DNA of 64,000 nucleotides from Chitinophagales bacterium (GTDB lineage Bacteria > Bacteroidota > Bacteroidia > Chitinophagales > LD1), in NCBI GenBank assembly GCA_016787045.1, contig JAEUVA010000019.1:1-64000 (forward strand), read 5' to 3'. The notes under the pieces were generated by a model. That model ran no database searches. It was not told the origin of the DNA and saw nothing but the letters and a program-made list of their open reading frames with translations. The position numbers were made by a program, and so were the translations under genes. This document shows, in pieces, positions 3,322 through 12,254 of the stretch; position 1 is the first letter of the stretch, and each line of letters starts with the position of its first letter.

Positions 3322-6300
3322 ATGAAAAACATTAATTTACTCAGCACATTTCTTATCTGCACATTAGCTATCACCCAAAGTATTGGGCAACAAGTGATAG
3401 GCAGCTATCCGGCCATGAATGGTGGCTTTGAAGGAGCTACCATTGATAACACCACTTTTACCTCAGCTCAAGCTGGTAAGTGGGTAAAAAATAACAACAC
3501 ACAAACTATAGGTGCCGAAACCACCGTAGTACGCTCTGGCTCCACTGCATTAAATGTAACCAATGGCGCTACCGGAAGAAGAGTATGGACACCATTGGTA
3601 ACAGTTAGCAGCACAACATCAAATGTAACACTCCAGTGGTACAGAAGGGTTTCAAGTACCACAAATACACAAGAAAGCCAATCTGCCATAGGTGATGGAA
3701 CAACAGTAGATGCACAATCGAGCAACTATGCAGTTCCTTCAGCAGCTAATACTTGGGAAAAAGTTACATACACTAGGGCATCTTTCACCTTTACGAATTT
3801 GGCCGGAGCAGTGATTACTCGTCAACTAGGCACGGGCGGTACCATGTACATAGATGATGTAGTTATGTATAATGGAGCAGTAGACAACACCCCCCCCGTT
3901 GCTACCAACACCGTTACCATATCTAACCCAACCACCAACTCCTTAGACGTATTTTGGGCACCCGCACCAGGCGGTGTAGATGGTGGCGGATATGTAGTAG
4001 TGCGCTACGTCACCAGCCCCAATGCCGATAACGACCCTAACCAAAACGGCATTTATGCAGTGGGCAATACCATCACAAATGGCACCGGATCGCTAACCGG
4101 CACTATTCGCTACGTAGGTAGCACCCTGTCATTTACCGATAATGTGGGTTTATCTCCTAATACACAATATTGGTATAAAGTATATACAGTGGATAAAGCG
4201 TTTAATTACTCTAGCGAAACTACAGTTACCGGCACTACTCTGAACGTATCATCTCCCGATATCAATGTGTTAGGCAACGGAGTAAGCATCGTAGATGGTG
4301 ATGTAACCCCAAGCGCTGCTGACCATACACTCTTTCCCGCCACCATTATTGGCCAAACCAGCACCCGTACATTTACTATAGAAAATAACGGCACAGGCAC
4401 AATTAACCTGACCGGCTCGCCCATTGTTGCTATTAGTGGTTCAAGTGCCTTTGCGGTTACCACTCAACCATCTTCTACCACCATCACAAGCGGCTCGCCA
4501 GTTACTTTTGTAGTAACTTTTACCCCTACCAATACCACTGCACAAACCGCCACCATCAGTATTACTAACGATGACCCTGATGCTGGCGAGCAAACCTATA
4601 CCTTTGACGTGAGCGGTACCGGCAGCTATAGTGCAACAAGCGATGTAGAAATGGATGCAGGATTTAGTTACAATACAGATATTTTATATAAAGACTACCA
4701 AGGAAACCCCATCTCTAATACCGGGCACTCAGTAGGTATGTTGCGTTTTAGAGTACGCGATGGTGCTGCCTTAACAGATGCCGATAACGCTACAACTACC
4801 CTATCGGCCATAACCTTTAGTGCAGTGGCTAACATCGGCAGCATTCGCTCCGCAGCCATTTTTAATGGCAATACATTGGTTAATGCCTCACCCGTAATAA
4901 ACGTGGGAGCCGGCACTATCAACTTTAGTGGATTATCCATTTCTGCACCGGACGATGGAAATTCAGCATATTATACATTACGAGTTTCATTTAATAACAC
5001 CCCCAGCACAATTACCGACAATGCACAACTGAGTTTTACCATCACCTCGGCAAATGTTAGTGCAGCATCGGGTGGATCTAGTTTTGCTTCGTTTAGCAGC
5101 CAAACCAGTAGCATTACAGGCAACCGAAACCGCATAGAAGTAGAAGCCACAAAGTTGCTTTTTGTTCAAAATACGAGCAACGTCAACATAAATGCCGCTA
5201 TGTCGCCTTCTCCAAGCGTAGAGGCAGCCGATGATAATAATGTGCGCGATTTGGATTATGCAGCCGTGGTATCAATCACCTCTACAGGCACCCTTAATTC
5301 AAGCCCCATAAATATTAGTGCCACAGCAGGGTTAGCTACGTTTACCAGCATTATACATACGGCCATCGCCACAGGGCGTCAACTCACTGCTGCTTCGGGC
5401 AGTTTAGCTCCAGTTAATTCCAATAACTTCAACATCCTCTTTGCCAGTAGCAATACCGATTATTTCCGCAGCAAGCAAACCGGCAACTGGACATTAGCCA
5501 GTACATGGGAAAGTTCTCCAGACAATGCAACATGGAATAATGCGACTATTGCCCCTACTCAAACAGCGAATACCGTAACCATACAAACAGGGCATACTGT
5601 AACTATCAATAGTAACATTACAAACGACCAGGTGGTGGTGTTTGGCACATTAGAATATGCCGGTAGCACAAACAATAACTGGACGATAAACGATGAAACA
5701 GGAGATGATTTAGTAGTAGAAAATGGCGGAAGAATTTTGCTTACGGCTACCAACCAATCCTTGTTTTATGTGAATGGCGCTCCATCGGTGTTGATTAAAA
5801 CCGGAGGTATGGTTGAAGCACAGCACATTGGTGCGGGCGAAGCAGACGGCTGGGCGAATGACGAATGGACCTATGACGGATTTGGCCTCTACGAAGACCT
5901 GATTCAATGGCAAGATGGCGCCACCTTCTACTGGAACGTGAATGGCATATTTTCTTCTTCCGGCTTGCGCTACTTTTTCAATCGCCCGGCTATTACCGAT
6001 AAACCGCTGTTTAAAATCAGCGGCTCAGCTTCAAACCATGGCGGCACCAACCCTACTATTATCTATGCAGTTACAGAAATAGTGTCCGGCAAAGTATTAG
6101 TTTGGGCTAACTCCGGCACCAAAACCCACGTATTTGGCATTACCGGTGCCGGTAACCTTACCCAAAACAGCAACTCCGGCCAAATCGTTATTCAGGGCGC
6201 TGCCGGAGCCACCGCAGTGCTAGGTGGATCGGGCACTATTACCCTAAGCAACACTACACTGGGGTTAAAAATTTCCTCCGGCTGTATTACCAACCTGACC

Positions 6301-8328
6301 GATAACAAAACCATCAACACCGGTCCAATAACCGTAGATGGCACACTCAACTTTGGCGATAAGGCCATCAGCGGTACCTACTCTTCGTTTACATTAAGCG
6401 CCAGCGCTACTGCACGAACCAAAAATGCTAATGGCTTAAGAAACGTTTCGGGCAGTTTGCAAAACAATGCAGCCACCTATAACTTTTCTAACACCGGGGC
6501 TACCGTAGAATACGATGGTACTTCGGTACAAAACATCACCAACACACACAATTATTTTCACTTAAATATCACCGGTGCAGGAGACAAAAATTTGGTGGGC
6601 AATACCACTGTATTAGGTGACCTAACCATCACCGATATTGGCGATGGGTTAGGCCGCATTAAAGCCGCCACCCATACTTTAAATGTAGATGGCGATTGGC
6701 TAACCGATGGAGTAAATGCTTTTGACCGAGGCACAAGTATGGTAGTGTTGGGGGGTACAAACAAAACCATAGATGGAGCTACCAACTTCTACACCCTGCA
6801 AATAAATGGCAGCAGAACCGTAGCCAACATTGCAGGCAATCAGGTGAATGTGTACAATGCGTTAACCTTGAACAGCAGCACATTTACAGCCACCACTAAT
6901 GGTAAAGTGGCACTAAAATCAGATGCTTCACGCACAGCTTATCTGGATAACTTCTCTTTTGGCGGCACATACAACGGTGAACTAACCGTAGAGCGTTATG
7001 TGAGTAACACGTTTGATGGTTATCGCAATATCAGCGCTCCGGTAAGTGCCACCGTAGCTGAGTTAGCAGATGATGTTTCAATATTTGGACAGGATGGCGT
7101 TAACTGCTGGTACTCTTACACCCCATACCCTAACGTACAGGTGTATGACGAAGCAGCCAACAATAATCTCTCTACACCAAGCGGCAATTATTACACCGGT
7201 TGGATTAGCCGCACTGGCACCGCCAATGTGATGAATGCTGCACAGGGCTTTGCGGTGCGTACATACACCGGAATGCCTTACACAATCGATTTCACCGGCA
7301 CGCCAAATAATGCTACTGTAAACCGAAACATCACTTTAACAGCAACTGCAACACCAAGCGAAGATGGCTGGAATTTTACCGGTAATCCTTATCCATCGCC
7401 AATCAGTTGGAACGGGCTTAAATCATTTAACCCGGGCGAAGTGGCGGCTGCGTACTATGTGTTTAACACCACTGGCGAATACACCGGTAATTGGGGAAGT
7501 TTTAACGGTGTTACAGGTACCCTAGGCGCTACGGATAATATCGGTATAGGCCAGGGATTTTTCGTTAAAGCCACCGGAAACCATTCTCTTAACTTTGATA
7601 ACGGTATCCGGGTAGCCAACGCAACCACTCCATTCTTTAAAACCGGATCACTAGACAATGAAATCCGTTTAGAACTTACCGGCAACGGAAATATTGATGA
7701 GGTAGTTACCTATACAGATGCCGCAGCCACATTGAGCTATGACGAAGAGCACGATGCCCTAAAAATACCTGCCGGCAGCACAGTGTATATGAGCTACAAA
7801 CTTAGCGGTAAAGAGTATGCTATCAATGTAATTGACGAAGTGGTGGAAACCACCGAATTACCTTTGGTACTTTGGGCAAAAGATACCGGTCTGTACACCT
7901 TAAGTACAACCGAACTGAATTTGAACGGATTAGTTGCCCAACTCAAAGATGCTTTAACCAACACCCTTACAGAACTAAGCACCACGGGCACAGGCATTCA
8001 GATAGCACTAAATGGAGGAGAAGCAGTTGAAGGTCGCTACAGCATTGTGTTTAAGAAAGAAGAAGTTGTGGAACCCGTTGGTATCAGCAATACAAACGCT
8101 TCGCAAAACATACGTATATACAGCTACCAAAGTAAAGCAATTATTGAGCGAGCCACCGAGCAACCCGCTACTATCATCATTACCAACCTAATAGGCCAAA
8201 CCATCAAAGAGGTAACTACTACAAGCAAACGTACAGAGATAGAACTGGGTACCGGCAACGAATGGTATGCGATAGTGAAAATGAAGGAAGCCAATCAGAC
8301 AAAAACCGGCAAAGTATTGATTAAATAA
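3322..8328 (+). CDS. Giant T9SS-secreted multidomain surface protein
   Basis: This 1668-residue exported protein has a signal peptide ending near SIGQ (residues 1-23). A carbohydrate-binding-like jelly-roll region follows (about 25-190), then a fibronectin-III-like domain (about 195-310) and a choice-of-anchor-D/ASH-like Ig domain (about 315-440; FTIENNGTGTINL and ITNDDPDAGEQTYTFDVSG). A long repetitive beta region rich in Thr, Asn and Gly extends to about 1250, and a segment common in Bacteroidota exoproteins (ERYVSNTFDGYRNIS) follows. The last 80 or so residues form a type A T9SS C-terminal domain (ITNLIGQTIKEV, ending KTGKVLIK) that directs outer-membrane export and surface attachment. No catalytic motif was recognised, so adhesion or matrix roles are likely. 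It has its own promoter and is flanked by inverted heptad repeats. Confidence 0.93.
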   Translation: MKNINLLSTFLICTLAITQSIGQQVIGSYPAMNGGFEGATIDNTTFTSAQAGKWVKNNNTQTIGAETTVVRSGSTALNVTNGATGRRVWTPLVTVSSTTSNVTLQWYRRVSSTTNTQESQSAIGDGTTVDAQSSNYAVPSAANTWEKVTYTRASFTFTNLAGAVITRQLGTGGTMYIDDVVMYNGAVDNTPPVATNTVTISNPTTNSLDVFWAPAPGGVDGGGYVVVRYVTSPNADNDPNQNGIYAVGNTITNGTGSLTGTIRYVGSTLSFTDNVGLSPNTQYWYKVYTVDKAFNYSSETTVTGTTLNVSSPDINVLGNGVSIVDGDVTPSAADHTLFPATIIGQTSTRTFTIENNGTGTINLTGSPIVAISGSSAFAVTTQPSSTTITSGSPVTFVVTFTPTNTTAQTATISITNDDPDAGEQTYTFDVSGTGSYSATSDVEMDAGFSYNTDILYKDYQGNPISNTGHSVGMLRFRVRDGAALTDADNATTTLSAITFSAVANIGSIRSAAIFNGNTLVNASPVINVGAGTINFSGLSISAPDDGNSAYYTLRVSFNNTPSTITDNAQLSFTITSANVSAASGGSSFASFSSQTSSITGNRNRIEVEATKLLFVQNTSNVNINAAMSPSPSVEAADDNNVRDLDYAAVVSITSTGTLNSSPINISATAGLATFTSIIHTAIATGRQLTAASGSLAPVNSNNFNILFASSNTDYFRSKQTGNWTLASTWESSPDNATWNNATIAPTQTANTVTIQTGHTVTINSNITNDQVVVFGTLEYAGSTNNNWTINDETGDDLVVENGGRILLTATNQSLFYVNGAPSVLIKTGGMVEAQHIGAGEADGWANDEWTYDGFGLYEDLIQWQDGATFYWNVNGIFSSSGLRYFFNRPAITDKPLFKISGSASNHGGTNPTIIYAVTEIVSGKVLVWANSGTKTHVFGITGAGNLTQNSNSGQIVIQGAAGATAVLGGSGTITLSNTTLGLKISSGCITNLTDNKTINTGPITVDGTLNFGDKAISGTYSSFTLSASATARTKNANGLRNVSGSLQNNAATYNFSNTGATVEYDGTSVQNITNTHNYFHLNITGAGDKNLVGNTTVLGDLTITDIGDGLGRIKAATHTLNVDGDWLTDGVNAFDRGTSMVVLGGTNKTIDGATNFYTLQINGSRTVANIAGNQVNVYNALTLNSSTFTATTNGKVALKSDASRTAYLDNFSFGGTYNGELTVERYVSNTFDGYRNISAPVSATVAELADDVSIFGQDGVNCWYSYTPYPNVQVYDEAANNNLSTPSGNYYTGWISRTGTANVMNAAQGFAVRTYTGMPYTIDFTGTPNNATVNRNITLTATATPSEDGWNFTGNPYPSPISWNGLKSFNPGEVAAAYYVFNTTGEYTGNWGSFNGVTGTLGATDNIGIGQGFFVKATGNHSLNFDNGIRVANATTPFFKTGSLDNEIRLELTGNGNIDEVVTYTDAAATLSYDEEHDALKIPAGSTVYMSYKLSGKEYAINVIDEVVETTELPLVLWAKDTGLYTLSTTELNLNGLVAQLKDALTNTLTELSTTGTGIQIALNGGEAVEGRYSIVFKKEEVVEPVGISNTNASQNIRIYSYQSKAIIERATEQPATIIITNLIGQTIKEVTTTSKRTEIELGTGNEWYAIVKMKEANQTKTGKVLIK

Positions 8329-8413: not shown

Positions 8414-8629
8414 ATGAAACCAACTCTTCAAATACTACTAACTGCGCTTTTATTAAGCACCGCCATACTCGCCAATGCCCAACCGGGTGGTGGTGGTGGC
8501 GGACAAGGCCAGGGCGGCCCGCCCCCGGGAGGAGCCGTACCGATAGATGGCGGAGTAATACTATTGGCAGCCGGAGCAGCGCTGTATGGCCGCAAGGTGA
8601 TGAAAAGTAAAGCAGAAGAACTGGCGTAA
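8414..8629 (+). CDS. PID-CTERM protein, tiny predicted exosortase substrate
   Basis: This 71-residue protein has an N-terminal signal peptide (residues 1-23, cleavage after NAQ or nearby). A Gly/Pro/Gln-rich stretch (about 24-41) comes next, then the tripeptide PID (43-45), a hydrophobic helix GGVILLAAGAALYG (46-59) and a basic tail RKVMKSK. This tripartite motif-helix-basic tail is the hallmark of exosortase/archaeosortase sorting signals. I recall the PID variant being named PID-CTERM in Bacteroidota, but cannot check the family record. The next gene encodes an exosortase-family protein, which supports the call. If both ends are processed, only about 20 residues remain, so the product may be a peptide, an anchor for polysaccharide or a matrix unit. 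Its function is unknown. Confidence 0.82.
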   Translation: MKPTLQILLTALLLSTAILANAQPGGGGGGQGQGGPPPGGAVPIDGGVILLAAGAALYGRKVMKSKAEELA

Positions 8630-8689
8630 TCATCCTTCGGGTTTACCAAATAAAGCAGATGTGAAAACTTCCGCTTTTTTTGCAAGGAT

Positions 8690-9259
8690 ATGGCTCTGCC
8701 AGTTTTACATCAAGCCCGCGCATTTTTACGCGATAAGGGCAACCGCTTTGTGGTGCAAATTGTAGGCGTGTACTTATCTTGGAAAGTGTTGTATTGCTTT
8801 ATTGAAAACAGCAGAGGGTGGCTTGGTCAGGGGTGGAAAAAGATAGTAGATGTGCTGGGCATTGTTTATGCAGAGATTACGCACCAGCTACTGGCTATGA
8901 TGGGTGTGCAAACCATACGTATTGCCAACACACTACATCATATTGGTACAAAAGGAACCATTTCTATGGATGAGCATTGCTTGGCTATACCTGCCATGTT
9001 TATCTTTAGCGCATGCATATTTTTGTTTAGCGGTTCATTGAAAAACAAGTTGTGGTTTATTCCAATTGGTATTTTGGGAATTGCGGCAATAAATATCTCC
9101 CGCATGGTTATATTGGGGTTTGTGTATATATATTTGCCGCGTCCGTTTTTTGTGTTTCACCATTCTTTTGTGTTTATTATTGTTACGTATTCATTAGTTT
9201 TTCTTTTAATTCGGTTTTGGATGAAATATTTAAGCGACCAACAAATTTCTAACGCATGA
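8690..9259 (+). CDS. Exosortase-family transpeptidase (XrtX-like)
   Basis: This 189-residue integral membrane protein has about five hydrophobic segments and the three invariant exosortase/archaeosortase residues in order. These are a cysteine in the loop entering a helix (DEHCLAIPA, Cys97), an arginine in NISRMV (Arg138) and a histidine in FHHSF (His157 or His158). The family cleaves C-terminal sorting signals at the membrane and transfers the substrate to a new attachment. The adjacent PID-CTERM protein is the obvious substrate. The next gene overlaps this one by four bases (ATGA), so the two are translationally coupled. At 189 residues it is shorter than EpsH-type enzymes of about 290, and similar to other compact Bacteroidota exosortases. 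The subfamily name is from memory. Confidence 0.87.
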   Translation: MALPVLHQARAFLRDKGNRFVVQIVGVYLSWKVLYCFIENSRGWLGQGWKKIVDVLGIVYAEITHQLLAMMGVQTIRIANTLHHIGTKGTISMDEHCLAIPAMFIFSACIFLFSGSLKNKLWFIPIGILGIAAINISRMVILGFVYIYLPRPFFVFHHSFVFIIVTYSLVFLLIRFWMKYLSDQQISNA

Positions 9260-10125
9260 CAAAAATTGCCTATCAGTTTGGCGGACAAGGGGCAATTGTA
9301 GACCCCATACCCAGTAAATTAAAGCGGATTGTTACCTCTGCCACTTTTTTGTTGGGGGCATTTATGCTCACTCAATTGATTGTTCAGTTGTATATATATA
9401 CCTTTACCACACTCCTCGGTTACGAAACCCAGTTTGGCTACCATTGGGTGGTGGCCAAGCCATTTGCCTGGGACATGTGGGGTAATGTACGGGTTGTTAT
9501 GATATATGCCATGCCACCAATTATTTGTTTGGTGTTGGCGTACATTACACAGTTTGTGTTTATCAATTACAGTTCTGTGGCTACCCGCAGCAAGTTGTTT
9601 TTTTTATGGATGCAAACGTGTCTAATAAACCTGCTTTTAACCCAGTTGTTTATATTGCCGGTAGGGTCAAAAGGCGGCTTAACTGGCTTTTATCAAACTT
9701 TCTCCATTGTAGCTACTTGGTTTAGGGTCGAAGGAGTATATTTTTTACCGGCTACCATACTAGCCGCTGTATTAGCGGTGCTATGGGGCATATTTATTGC
9801 ACCACAGCTTCAAACCTTCTCATTTTCGGCCCGGCTTATCCAAACCAAATCCGGCAAAGATGCCATGTCCAGACAGGTATTTGTATTTCCACTTTTGTTA
9901 GCATCCCCATTTATTATACTCTTCAGCAATCAGTATTCGTTTTTTGTACACGTTATTTCTGTGGCACTAATGGGATTGATTTACGTTGGTGTGATTATTC
10001 GCCACCGCACCGATGCCAGCGTAGTGATGTGTAGCAAAGAAGACTTTTTGAATGCATTGAATTGGAAAGAAATAGTAGCAGTAATAGCGCTTTGGACAGT
10101 TATTATTGTGTTTTTTAACCGGTAA
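9256..10125 (+). CDS. Exosortase-associated multi-pass membrane protein
   Basis: This 289-residue inner-membrane protein has about seven predicted transmembrane segments, beginning near ATFLLGAFMLTQLIV and ending with a C-terminal helix VIALWTVIIVFF. No catalytic or transport motif is recognised. The start codon overlaps the stop of the exosortase gene (ATGA), which implies coupled translation and a functional link. I recall a family described as XrtX-associated membrane proteins with this genomic position, and this looks like a member, but I cannot verify it by search. It might present the substrate, supply the acceptor molecule or export the processed product. These roles are inferences. 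Confidence 0.75.
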   Translation: MTKIAYQFGGQGAIVDPIPSKLKRIVTSATFLLGAFMLTQLIVQLYIYTFTTLLGYETQFGYHWVVAKPFAWDMWGNVRVVMIYAMPPIICLVLAYITQFVFINYSSVATRSKLFFLWMQTCLINLLLTQLFILPVGSKGGLTGFYQTFSIVATWFRVEGVYFLPATILAAVLAVLWGIFIAPQLQTFSFSARLIQTKSGKDAMSRQVFVFPLLLASPFIILFSNQYSFFVHVISVALMGLIYVGVIIRHRTDASVVMCSKEDFLNALNWKEIVAVIALWTVIIVFFNR

Positions 10126-10241: not shown

Positions 10242-12254
10242 ATGAAACAACTCTTCACAATTGCTTTTGTGCTTTGCGCCCTCATCGGATTTGGCCAGCA
10301 AAACACAACAGACATTAGCGTGGCTGGACAGAAAATTTTGTTCAACACCGCAGGCAAAAGAACCATTGACCCGGCTTCTAAGTACAGCCGTCCGGCTCGT
10401 GCTAACAAAGGCGATAACCGCGCCCAGAACGTTAACTTCATCATTGACTATGGTTATTTGGATGAGCAGTATGCCTCTAACGTTACTTCTGGCGATTACT
10501 ATGATGACCGCATTTTTCAAGTTGGTCGCAGATTGCCCATTGACTCTTCATTTACCCTGCGTTGGGCATTCCAGTGGTATCCACAGATTGTAGATGCAGA
10601 CAATGTGAGCGCATGGCCTTTTATTGAATATCCGGCTTCTAAGATTCAAATGACCATAGACACCATTTTGGTTTCACTGGGTCATATCCGCAACTCTAAC
10701 AGCACAGATACTATTGTTGTATCAGTTTGGGATTTTGACAACCTAAACACGATCAGTTTTGCTGATTCAGGATGCACTGGTACCCTTTATGGACGTGCCA
10801 TGTTAACCGTAGATTCATCATTAACCGGTGCTGGCTCACAAGCAGGTACTATTGCTATTGGCACTTTCCCGTTTGTACCGGCAACACCAATTGTTATCCC
10901 TCAAGGAAAGCGTTTTGTGATACAGGTTGACTTTTTTGGTCAAAACAACGATGAGTTTTACTTGTTAGCCGGTCGCAGAAACGATTGCGCTAATGCTACT
11001 TGCGGCTCAAGCTTACCATACATCATGGATGACTACAACGCGCAGGTTACCGACTTTAACTCCCTAGGAGCCATCCGTTTTGGAGCTGGTACTTCACAGG
11101 CGGGTCAATACCCTACTACTTTCTTCTACAACGATTGCAACGGCAACCAAGGCGGACCAGACAGCACAGATTGCGAATTCTTTACCATGAGCGATTTGTA
11201 CATCTTCCCAAATATCAAAGCAGTTATTCCAGATTTTTACGCAGCTATTGCCTCTGATGTAACTAACGGCTGCCCTGGTGCTACAGCTACATTAACCGCA
11301 TCTGCTGGTGGTTCCTCTTCAACACCTTATACTTACGCTTGGTCAACATCAAGTGGTACACTCAGCAGCACCAGCGATCCACAAGTAAATCTTACCTTAG
11401 GTGGTACAAACGCAGTAGTTACAGTTACTGTAACTGATGCCAGCAATCAAACAGTTTCAGAAACATTTACCATTACTTCTCGCGCAGTAACCGTAAGCGT
11501 ATCAAGTGCTAACCCATTAGTAATTAACTGTGGTGGTACTGGTACCATTACCACTACAATTGGCGGAACTACTACCGGCAAAAACTACGTGTGGAGCACA
11601 GGTGCTACCGGTGCAAATACAACTACAGTAGCTGCTCAATACCCAGGTAATTACAGTGTAACTGTAACTAACAGTTTCGGCTGCTCAGCGTCTGCTACTA
11701 CTTCAGTTCAATATCCCGGAGGTTTGAACAACAACATCAACTTCACTGTACCTGGTGGTCAAAAGTGTAAAGATCAATCTATTACCTTTACCAATACTTC
11801 TGACCGTACTGCTGGTTGGGATTACACTTGGACATTTGGTGATGGTAACTTCGGCATTGGTACAAAAGATGGTTCAAACATTTACCAAAACCCTGGTTCT
11901 TACAACGTTAAGCTTGAGCAAGACAGTGCAGGTTGCAAATTTACCTCTACTACAAAGTCAGTTACTATTGCTAACTGTACTGGTTTAGATGATGTAGCTT
12001 TCAGCAACAATGTAAGTATTGTTCCAAACCCAACCAATGGCAACGTAACCATCAACATCAACGGAGCTGAAGGTAACGTAACAGTTAAGCTGTACAACAT
12101 CATCGGTTCTGAGTTAAAATCGTTTACTACTAACGATGTAAACAACAACTTTAGCCGTGTATTTGACTACAGCGACTTGCCAACCGGCACCTACTTAGTA
12201 AAAGTACAAACCGGCAACAAAACAGCTGTGAAGCGCTTAGCTATCAGCAAGTAA
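10242..12254 (+). CDS. T9SS-secreted protein with PKD-like domains
   Basis: This secreted protein of about 670 residues starts at the ATG encoding MKQLFTIAF, which opens a clean signal peptide ending near IGFGQQ. Upstream in-frame codons lack that property. The first 330 residues form a novel-looking region with strings of Asp and aromatic residues. Two PKD/Ig-like domains follow (TYAWSTSSGTL at about 370, and WDYTWTFGDGNFGIG at about 535, the classic PKD W-x-F-G-D-G motif). The C-terminus is a type A T9SS domain (IVPNPTNGNVTI, GSELKSF, DLPTGTYLVKVQ, ending KRLAISK). It is probably exported to the cell surface or medium. A good terminator follows. No enzymatic motif was seen. Confidence 0.92.
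   Translation: MKQLFTIAFVLCALIGFGQQNTTDISVAGQKILFNTAGKRTIDPASKYSRPARANKGDNRAQNVNFIIDYGYLDEQYASNVTSGDYYDDRIFQVGRRLPIDSSFTLRWAFQWYPQIVDADNVSAWPFIEYPASKIQMTIDTILVSLGHIRNSNSTDTIVVSVWDFDNLNTISFADSGCTGTLYGRAMLTVDSSLTGAGSQAGTIAIGTFPFVPATPIVIPQGKRFVIQVDFFGQNNDEFYLLAGRRNDCANATCGSSLPYIMDDYNAQVTDFNSLGAIRFGAGTSQAGQYPTTFFYNDCNGNQGGPDSTDCEFFTMSDLYIFPNIKAVIPDFYAAIASDVTNGCPGATATLTASAGGSSSTPYTYAWSTSSGTLSSTSDPQVNLTLGGTNAVVTVTVTDASNQTVSETFTITSRAVTVSVSSANPLVINCGGTGTITTTIGGTTTGKNYVWSTGATGANTTTVAAQYPGNYSVTVTNSFGCSASATTSVQYPGGLNNNINFTVPGGQKCKDQSITFTNTSDRTAGWDYTWTFGDGNFGIGTKDGSNIYQNPGSYNVKLEQDSAGCKFTSTTKSVTIANCTGLDDVAFSNNVSIVPNPTNGNVTININGAEGNVTVKLYNIIGSELKSFTTNDVNNNFSRVFDYSDLPTGTYLVKVQTGNKTAVKRLAISK

Follow-up and report, generated by a model that had tools for sequence, protein, structure and literature searches.

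An XrtX-like exosortase cassette from Chitinophagales with a probable M50-like pseudoprotease partner and a PID-CTERM miniprotein of a kind found beside type IX secretion cargo genes

Why do genes for a tiny PID-CTERM protein, an exosortase and a seven-helix membrane protein stand side by side, and what does the third protein do there? The question is raised by a locus in the window, by which we mean the whole 64,000-nucleotide stretch of DNA analysed, corresponding to contig C21 of a Chitinophagales MAG (3.62 Mb, 51 contigs, 99.6% complete). An earlier note, made from the sequence, saw in it a self-contained unit of a PID-motif substrate, an exosortase and a dedicated membrane partner. The three genes are real and adjacent, at 8414-8629, 8690-9259 and 9256-10125, and the last two overlap by ATGA as the note had described, but the unit is not closed: the source genome has two XrtX-like exosortase genes, on separate contigs, and five PID genes, each on a contig of its own, and upstream the unit also takes in the gene for a giant surface protein of 1668 amino acids (3322..8328, + strand) that lies directly before the PID gene and carries a choice-of-anchor D domain (NF012200, E 2e-17). 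A scan for terminators and promoters gave no signal exceeding that of shuffled sequences. The exosortase and the PID-CTERM protein are of known kinds; what is new is the accessory protein, together with a link to cargo genes of the type IX secretion system (T9SS) that recurs and has apparently not been described. PID-CTERM found no mention in the literature searched, a search that lay mostly outside subscription journals.

Results

The exosortase and its miniprotein

The 189-residue product of the second gene (8690..9259, + strand) scores 42.6 bits against the exosortase superfamily model TIGR04178 (cut-off 23), in agreement with the identity proposed earlier. Its best subfamily is XrtX (NF046081, E 1.2e-23), for which it reaches 83.8 bits against a cut-off of 170; we therefore call it XrtX-like. 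Three catalytic residues, Cys97 (8978..8980, + strand), Arg138 (9101..9103, + strand) and His158 (9161..9163, + strand), are invariant in 33 of 33 aligned homologues. This settles the triad, for which the earlier note had offered His157 or His158: His157 is not the conserved histidine. Of the named relatives, the closest to the exosortase-partner pair is in the Chitinophagales MAG SKYG42 (locus L140; 58% identity for the exosortase and 66% for the partner), where the pair sits between thioredoxin reductase-like and DsbD-like genes, named from their translations, with no adjoining PID gene. A search with an alignment of the exosortase (A3) yielded 16 MAG loci.

The PID protein (71 residues; 8414..8629, + strand) matches the PID-CTERM model NF046080 at 32 bits (cut-off 26; E 7.6e-8). 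The substrate recognized in the earlier note is thus a PID-CTERM protein, and it is a miniprotein with a predicted mature part of only about 20 residues. A predicted Sec signal peptide occupies residues 1-22 (8414..8479, + strand) and ends in ANA|Q, an Ala|Gln boundary that recurs in homologues; the following 20 residues (23-42; 8480..8539, + strand) form a Gly/Pro/Gln linker that would be the entire ectodomain; and the Pro-Ile-Asp motif (residues 43-45; 8540..8548, + strand), which falls within the part aligned to NF046080 (residues 42-59), precedes the tail helix and a basic terminus. The search for further PID-CTERM proteins in the source genome that the note had suggested returned four more, and all five are tiny (64-102 residues), each with a signal peptide, a short linker and a PID tail; in four of them, linker and tail are nearly identical. 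Among 199 related genomes, all the PID matches listed lie in open frames of at most 144 residues, and in a sample of 395 genomes from the phylum, 59 of which have PID matches, all but one of about 155 matches listed fall in frames no longer than 200. In order-level candidates, the segment between the Gln and the PID motif has a median length of 21 residues, about 74% of them Gly, Pro, Gln, Ser or Asn (40 candidates, 35 with a clear Ala|Gln site; the set contains a spurious ORF and one or two whose start was mis-called).

Two observations concern PID genes elsewhere in the source genome. On contig C24, a lone PID miniprotein gene (locus L003, 1492-1686) stands beside trmB and a methylated-DNA methyltransferase gene, a neighbourhood kept in several relatives (seven loci, for example) with no exosortase nearby. 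Contigs C10 and C35 each start 61 bases ahead of a PID gene, the two genes being nearly identical, as though a repeated upstream sequence had interrupted the assembly; these are perhaps further copies of the giant-PID cassette.

The membrane partner

The 289-residue partner (9256..10125, + strand) has no match up to E 10 in NCBIfam or Pfam, and none among PDB sequence profiles. Its AlphaFold (AF2) model has a pLDDT of 87.8 and seven long helices, the number given in the earlier note, and that of a relative, L175, has a pLDDT of 90.7. Foldseek found no match in the PDB at E below 0.1 for the window partner. When the models were ranked against PDB chains with VIA-align, site-2 proteases came first for both, with Z scores of 6.7 and 5.9 for the window partner (next unrelated chain, 4.8) and of 7.0, 6.3 and 5.9 for L175 (next unrelated, 5.0); these are modest values, which alone can mean merely a common arrangement of helices.

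Sequence profiles point the same way. The profile of the partner family matches proteins with intact HELGH and HECAH motifs (L251 and L252; E 4.5e-12 and 1.8e-9, values for one genome), and after removal of its three most divergent members it still matches them, with the HExxH motif aligned on the partner's first transmembrane helix; canonical M50 proteins in the same small database were not matched by this reduced profile. In the window partner, the place of HExxH is taken by VQLYI (residues 43-47; 9382..9396, + strand), and none of 56 distinct family members has the motif. The zinc-ligand columns have diverged, and the second motif of L251 and L252, Y-G-D-x-G, is likewise lost in the partner family; the partner lacks both HExxH and the Asp by which M50 and site-2 proteases bind zinc. 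The same alignment puts an AGP motif on the helix after the first, in agreement with the structural ranges and with an earlier, non-significant profile-profile alignment. That comparison, in which the partner profile was set against canonical M50 families from relatives, gave no significant match (probability 0.8%, E 0.074; exosortase control, E 0.23), and its best alignment had already set the first helix on HExxH. Bridging through L172 in 100 relatives of genome G059 brought no further homologue, and a survey of DUF3267, present in 2 of 61 genomes, was of little use. Because site-2 proteases rank first for the models, the profile finds HExxH relatives and the motifs have been lost, we call the partner a probable M50-like pseudoprotease, a protein of predicted site-2-protease-like fold without a zinc site and not a member of M50 itself.

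The HExxH proteins deserve a remark of their own. L251 (1477-2280) and L252 (1192-1977) are small membrane proteins that match Pfam M50 families weakly (E 0.006-0.3), and L252 also weakly matches a model of daptide intramembrane metalloproteases (E 8e-5); they possibly represent an unnamed M50-like family.

The earlier note had proposed that the third protein supplies the acceptor of the exosortase reaction or exports its product. In favour of a protein that supplies or flips an acceptor, the partner spans the membrane with several helices and its gene is translationally coupled to that of the exosortase, and archaeosortase genes in Methanosarcina adjoin genes of lipid biosynthesis (PMC7157517). 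Against this, searches of Pfam, NCBIfam and PDB sequences show no likeness of the partner to a transferase or flippase, and its predicted fold and distant relatives point to M50-like peptidases. Nothing that we found suggests supply or export, and we regard such a role as improbable; the protein resembles an intramembrane metalloprotease minus its zinc site.

Distribution and gene orders

Is the partner truly tied to the exosortase? The partner family (alignments A1 and A4) was detected in 40 of 199 relatives, including every one of the 30 genomes in the family to which the window belongs and several from another family, but in only 10 of 395 phylum genomes. The exosortase gene precedes that of the partner in the window and at six other loci; the order is PID-partner-exosortase at six loci and partner-exosortase beside a gldB-like gene at six more, and in another taxonomic family (f22) partner and exosortase genes converge at four. 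At two loci, the partner adjoins a PID gene even without an adjacent exosortase. The second XrtX-like exosortase of the source genome, on contig C45, also has a relative of the partner directly upstream.

Across the 199 genomes, exosortase and PID occur together in 41, exosortase alone in 37, PID alone in 1 and neither in 120 (Fisher p 1e-19, relatedness ignored). An exosortase is found in 35 of the 40 genomes with the partner (p 2e-12, relatedness ignored), and PID and partner occur together in 27 (p 2e-13, relatedness ignored). The earlier note would have taken PID tails missing where the exosortase is kept as evidence against it, and here the result is divided: an XrtX-like gene accompanies PID in 41 of 42 genomes, yet of the 78 genomes with such a gene, 37 show no PID tail that could be detected, some of them being genomes with exosortases of other types. 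In this connection, two secreted proteins with an IPTL-CTERM-like tail, PTMTQWGLFLFGLI, are encoded less than 1 kb from other exosortase-like genes (L031:2381-3106 and L033:194-1012), which indicates that part of the XrtX hits of our survey are exosortases of other types.

A membrane gene that merely travels with the exosortase, unrelated to its function, would account for a partner kept in three genomes in which neither an XrtX-like gene nor a PID protein was detected, or found as an orphan beside gldB. We give this little credence, since the two genes are adjacent in four arrangements and two taxonomic families, are coupled by ATGA in the window, and the partner pairs with PID genes where the locus has no exosortase. 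The description of a dedicated membrane partner was, we think, right, and the genomes in which the partner occurs on its own suggest that it may have a separate function besides. In a tree of 57 exosortases, genes with an M50-like partner are scattered over at least two clades, among genes whose partner is a different one or which lack a partner.

The gldB-like site itself varies. In the source genome (L074, contig C45:99000-112500, at 5519-6955), it holds the second XrtX-like exosortase with its M50-like partner upstream, and at eight loci in relatives, it keeps the partner alone. The known XrtX partner, the XrtX-associated membrane protein NF046082, was considered as an identity for the 289-residue protein and ruled out: its model does not match the partner at E 10, and a genome-wide search did not find it. 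At three loci with XrtX proper or a close relative (L011, L012 and L222), a protein resembling NF046082, below the cut-off of that model, takes the place of the partner.

PID genes and type IX secretion

In most cassettes, the PID gene comes immediately after a gene for a large secreted protein; by reading, 23 PID genes of the order-level set, including that at L156, follow such a gene. Of 29 tails scanned for this set, six of them from neighbours deliberately chosen as non-T9SS, 19 matched the T9SS type A model TIGR04183 at E 0.1. The phylum sample served as an independent test: a script found a same-strand upstream gene at 20 of the 28 loci of the best PID matches, many of them from related genera, and 17 of these 20 genes match TIGR04183 at E 0.001; five more loci outside the scan show the same kind of tail by eye. 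As a background for this test, the source genome, which is very rich in T9SS proteins, has at least 150 type A tails, roughly 5% of its estimated 3,100 genes. The link to type IX secretion, which had no part in the earlier interpretation, suggests that PID miniproteins are coupled to this system; a role for them with T9SS cargo is what the gene order would imply.

Homologues of the window giant, 44-65% identical to it over the C-terminal 550 or so residues, stand directly before PID genes in seven related genomes and at a second locus of the source genome. The two such loci of the source genome, on C21 and C49, hold two of its four PID genes with nearly identical linkers and tails. The window giant matches no curated T9SS model, TIGR04183 included, though its C-terminal tail resembles a T9SS sorting domain, and the tails of two of its homologues match PF18962 below the cut-off. 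The next gene downstream of the partner encodes a protein with a type A tail (10242..12254, + strand; TIGR04183, E 6.1e-11), whose association with the unit is uncertain.

These neighbours bear on whether the miniprotein is anchored at all. It might instead be cut twice, freeing a signal or matrix peptide of about 20 residues that is attached to nothing, with the cargo gene sharing only its regulation. The mature part is indeed too short for a domain and mostly Gly, Pro and Gln, and near-identical PID copies occur within one genome. We nevertheless find a free peptide unlikely: archaeosortase A, which belongs to the best studied relatives of the enzyme, couples cleavage to lipid attachment at the new C terminus of its substrate (PMC7157517), and a neighbour with a T9SS tail, repeated across the phylum, suggests more than shared regulation.

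Discussion

Our results point to an XrtX-type exosortase unit in which the usual accessory protein would be replaced by a catalytically dead M50-like protein and the substrate, a miniprotein, would be tied to T9SS cargo. Gene order, family assignments, the conserved triad, the architecture of the miniprotein, the homology of the partner to HExxH proteins with loss of their motifs and the recurrent T9SS-tailed neighbour can all be read from the sequence. The mechanism that we propose goes beyond this. The miniprotein would be exported by the Sec system, and signal peptidase (SPase I) would remove residues 1-22, leaving the tail helix in the inner membrane. There, it would most plausibly be received and held by the partner, since the site-2-protease-like fold is that of enzymes that admit single helices. 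By analogy with its relatives, the XrtX-like enzyme would then cut near Pro-Ile-Asp, using Cys97, Arg138 and His158, and pass the Pro/Gly-rich peptide of about 20 residues to a lipid or glycan acceptor; to our knowledge, such transfer has been shown for no bacterial XrtX. The conjugate may finally reach the surface and help to mount or retain the giant surface protein encoded beside it. Taken as a whole, we consider this model evenly balanced between right and wrong; against it counts the nearest orthologous exosortase-partner pair (L140/L044), which has neither a PID gene nor a giant gene beside it.

A bolder and more general proposal, which we find doubtful but worth stating, is that each PID miniprotein, once processed by the exosortase, serves as a mounting peptide dedicated to one T9SS cargo protein, and that the site-2-protease-like pseudoenzyme serves in this lineage as the substrate receptor of the exosortase. 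If so, a single surface protein would be handled by two sorting systems thought to be separate. For the exosortases of Bacteroidota, the connection of PID miniproteins with T9SS cargo offers a concrete function that can be tested, and with a mature part of about 20 residues, the substrate is small enough to make mass spectrometry a good way to find the modification. Among bacterial pseudoproteases, an exosortase-coupled dead M50-like protein would be unusual, and it could help to explain how exosortases recognize tail helices.

Several known systems resemble parts of this cassette. The XrtX/PID-CTERM system (NF046081, NF046080 and NF046082) has the same triad and a short PID-CTERM gene directly upstream of the exosortase, but our enzyme scores 83.8 bits where XrtX requires 170, and the accessory is a 289-residue, seven-helix M50-like protein in place of the 147-residue NF046082 protein. 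Archaeosortase A shares the C-terminal tripartite signal and the Cys/Arg/His chemistry; for it, in contrast, a lipid acceptor has been shown, and it works without a pseudoprotease partner. The fold predicted for the first 150 or so residues of the partner resembles that of site-2 proteases and peptidase family M50, and relatives of the partner carry HExxH and GD, whereas HExxH and the Asp ligand are lost in the partner itself. The iRhoms (rhomboid pseudoproteases) retain the fold of intramembrane proteases in inactive form and bind substrates or regulate other proteins with which they associate (PMC3149277); they derive from a different protease family and have no exosortase. Finally, XrtF and Fjoh_1449 of Flavobacterium johnsoniae belong to a different exosortase subfamily and a different partner family (TIGR04127), but they too pair a Bacteroidota exosortase with a membrane partner gene, and deletion mutants of both are affected in surface colonization (PMC10936215).
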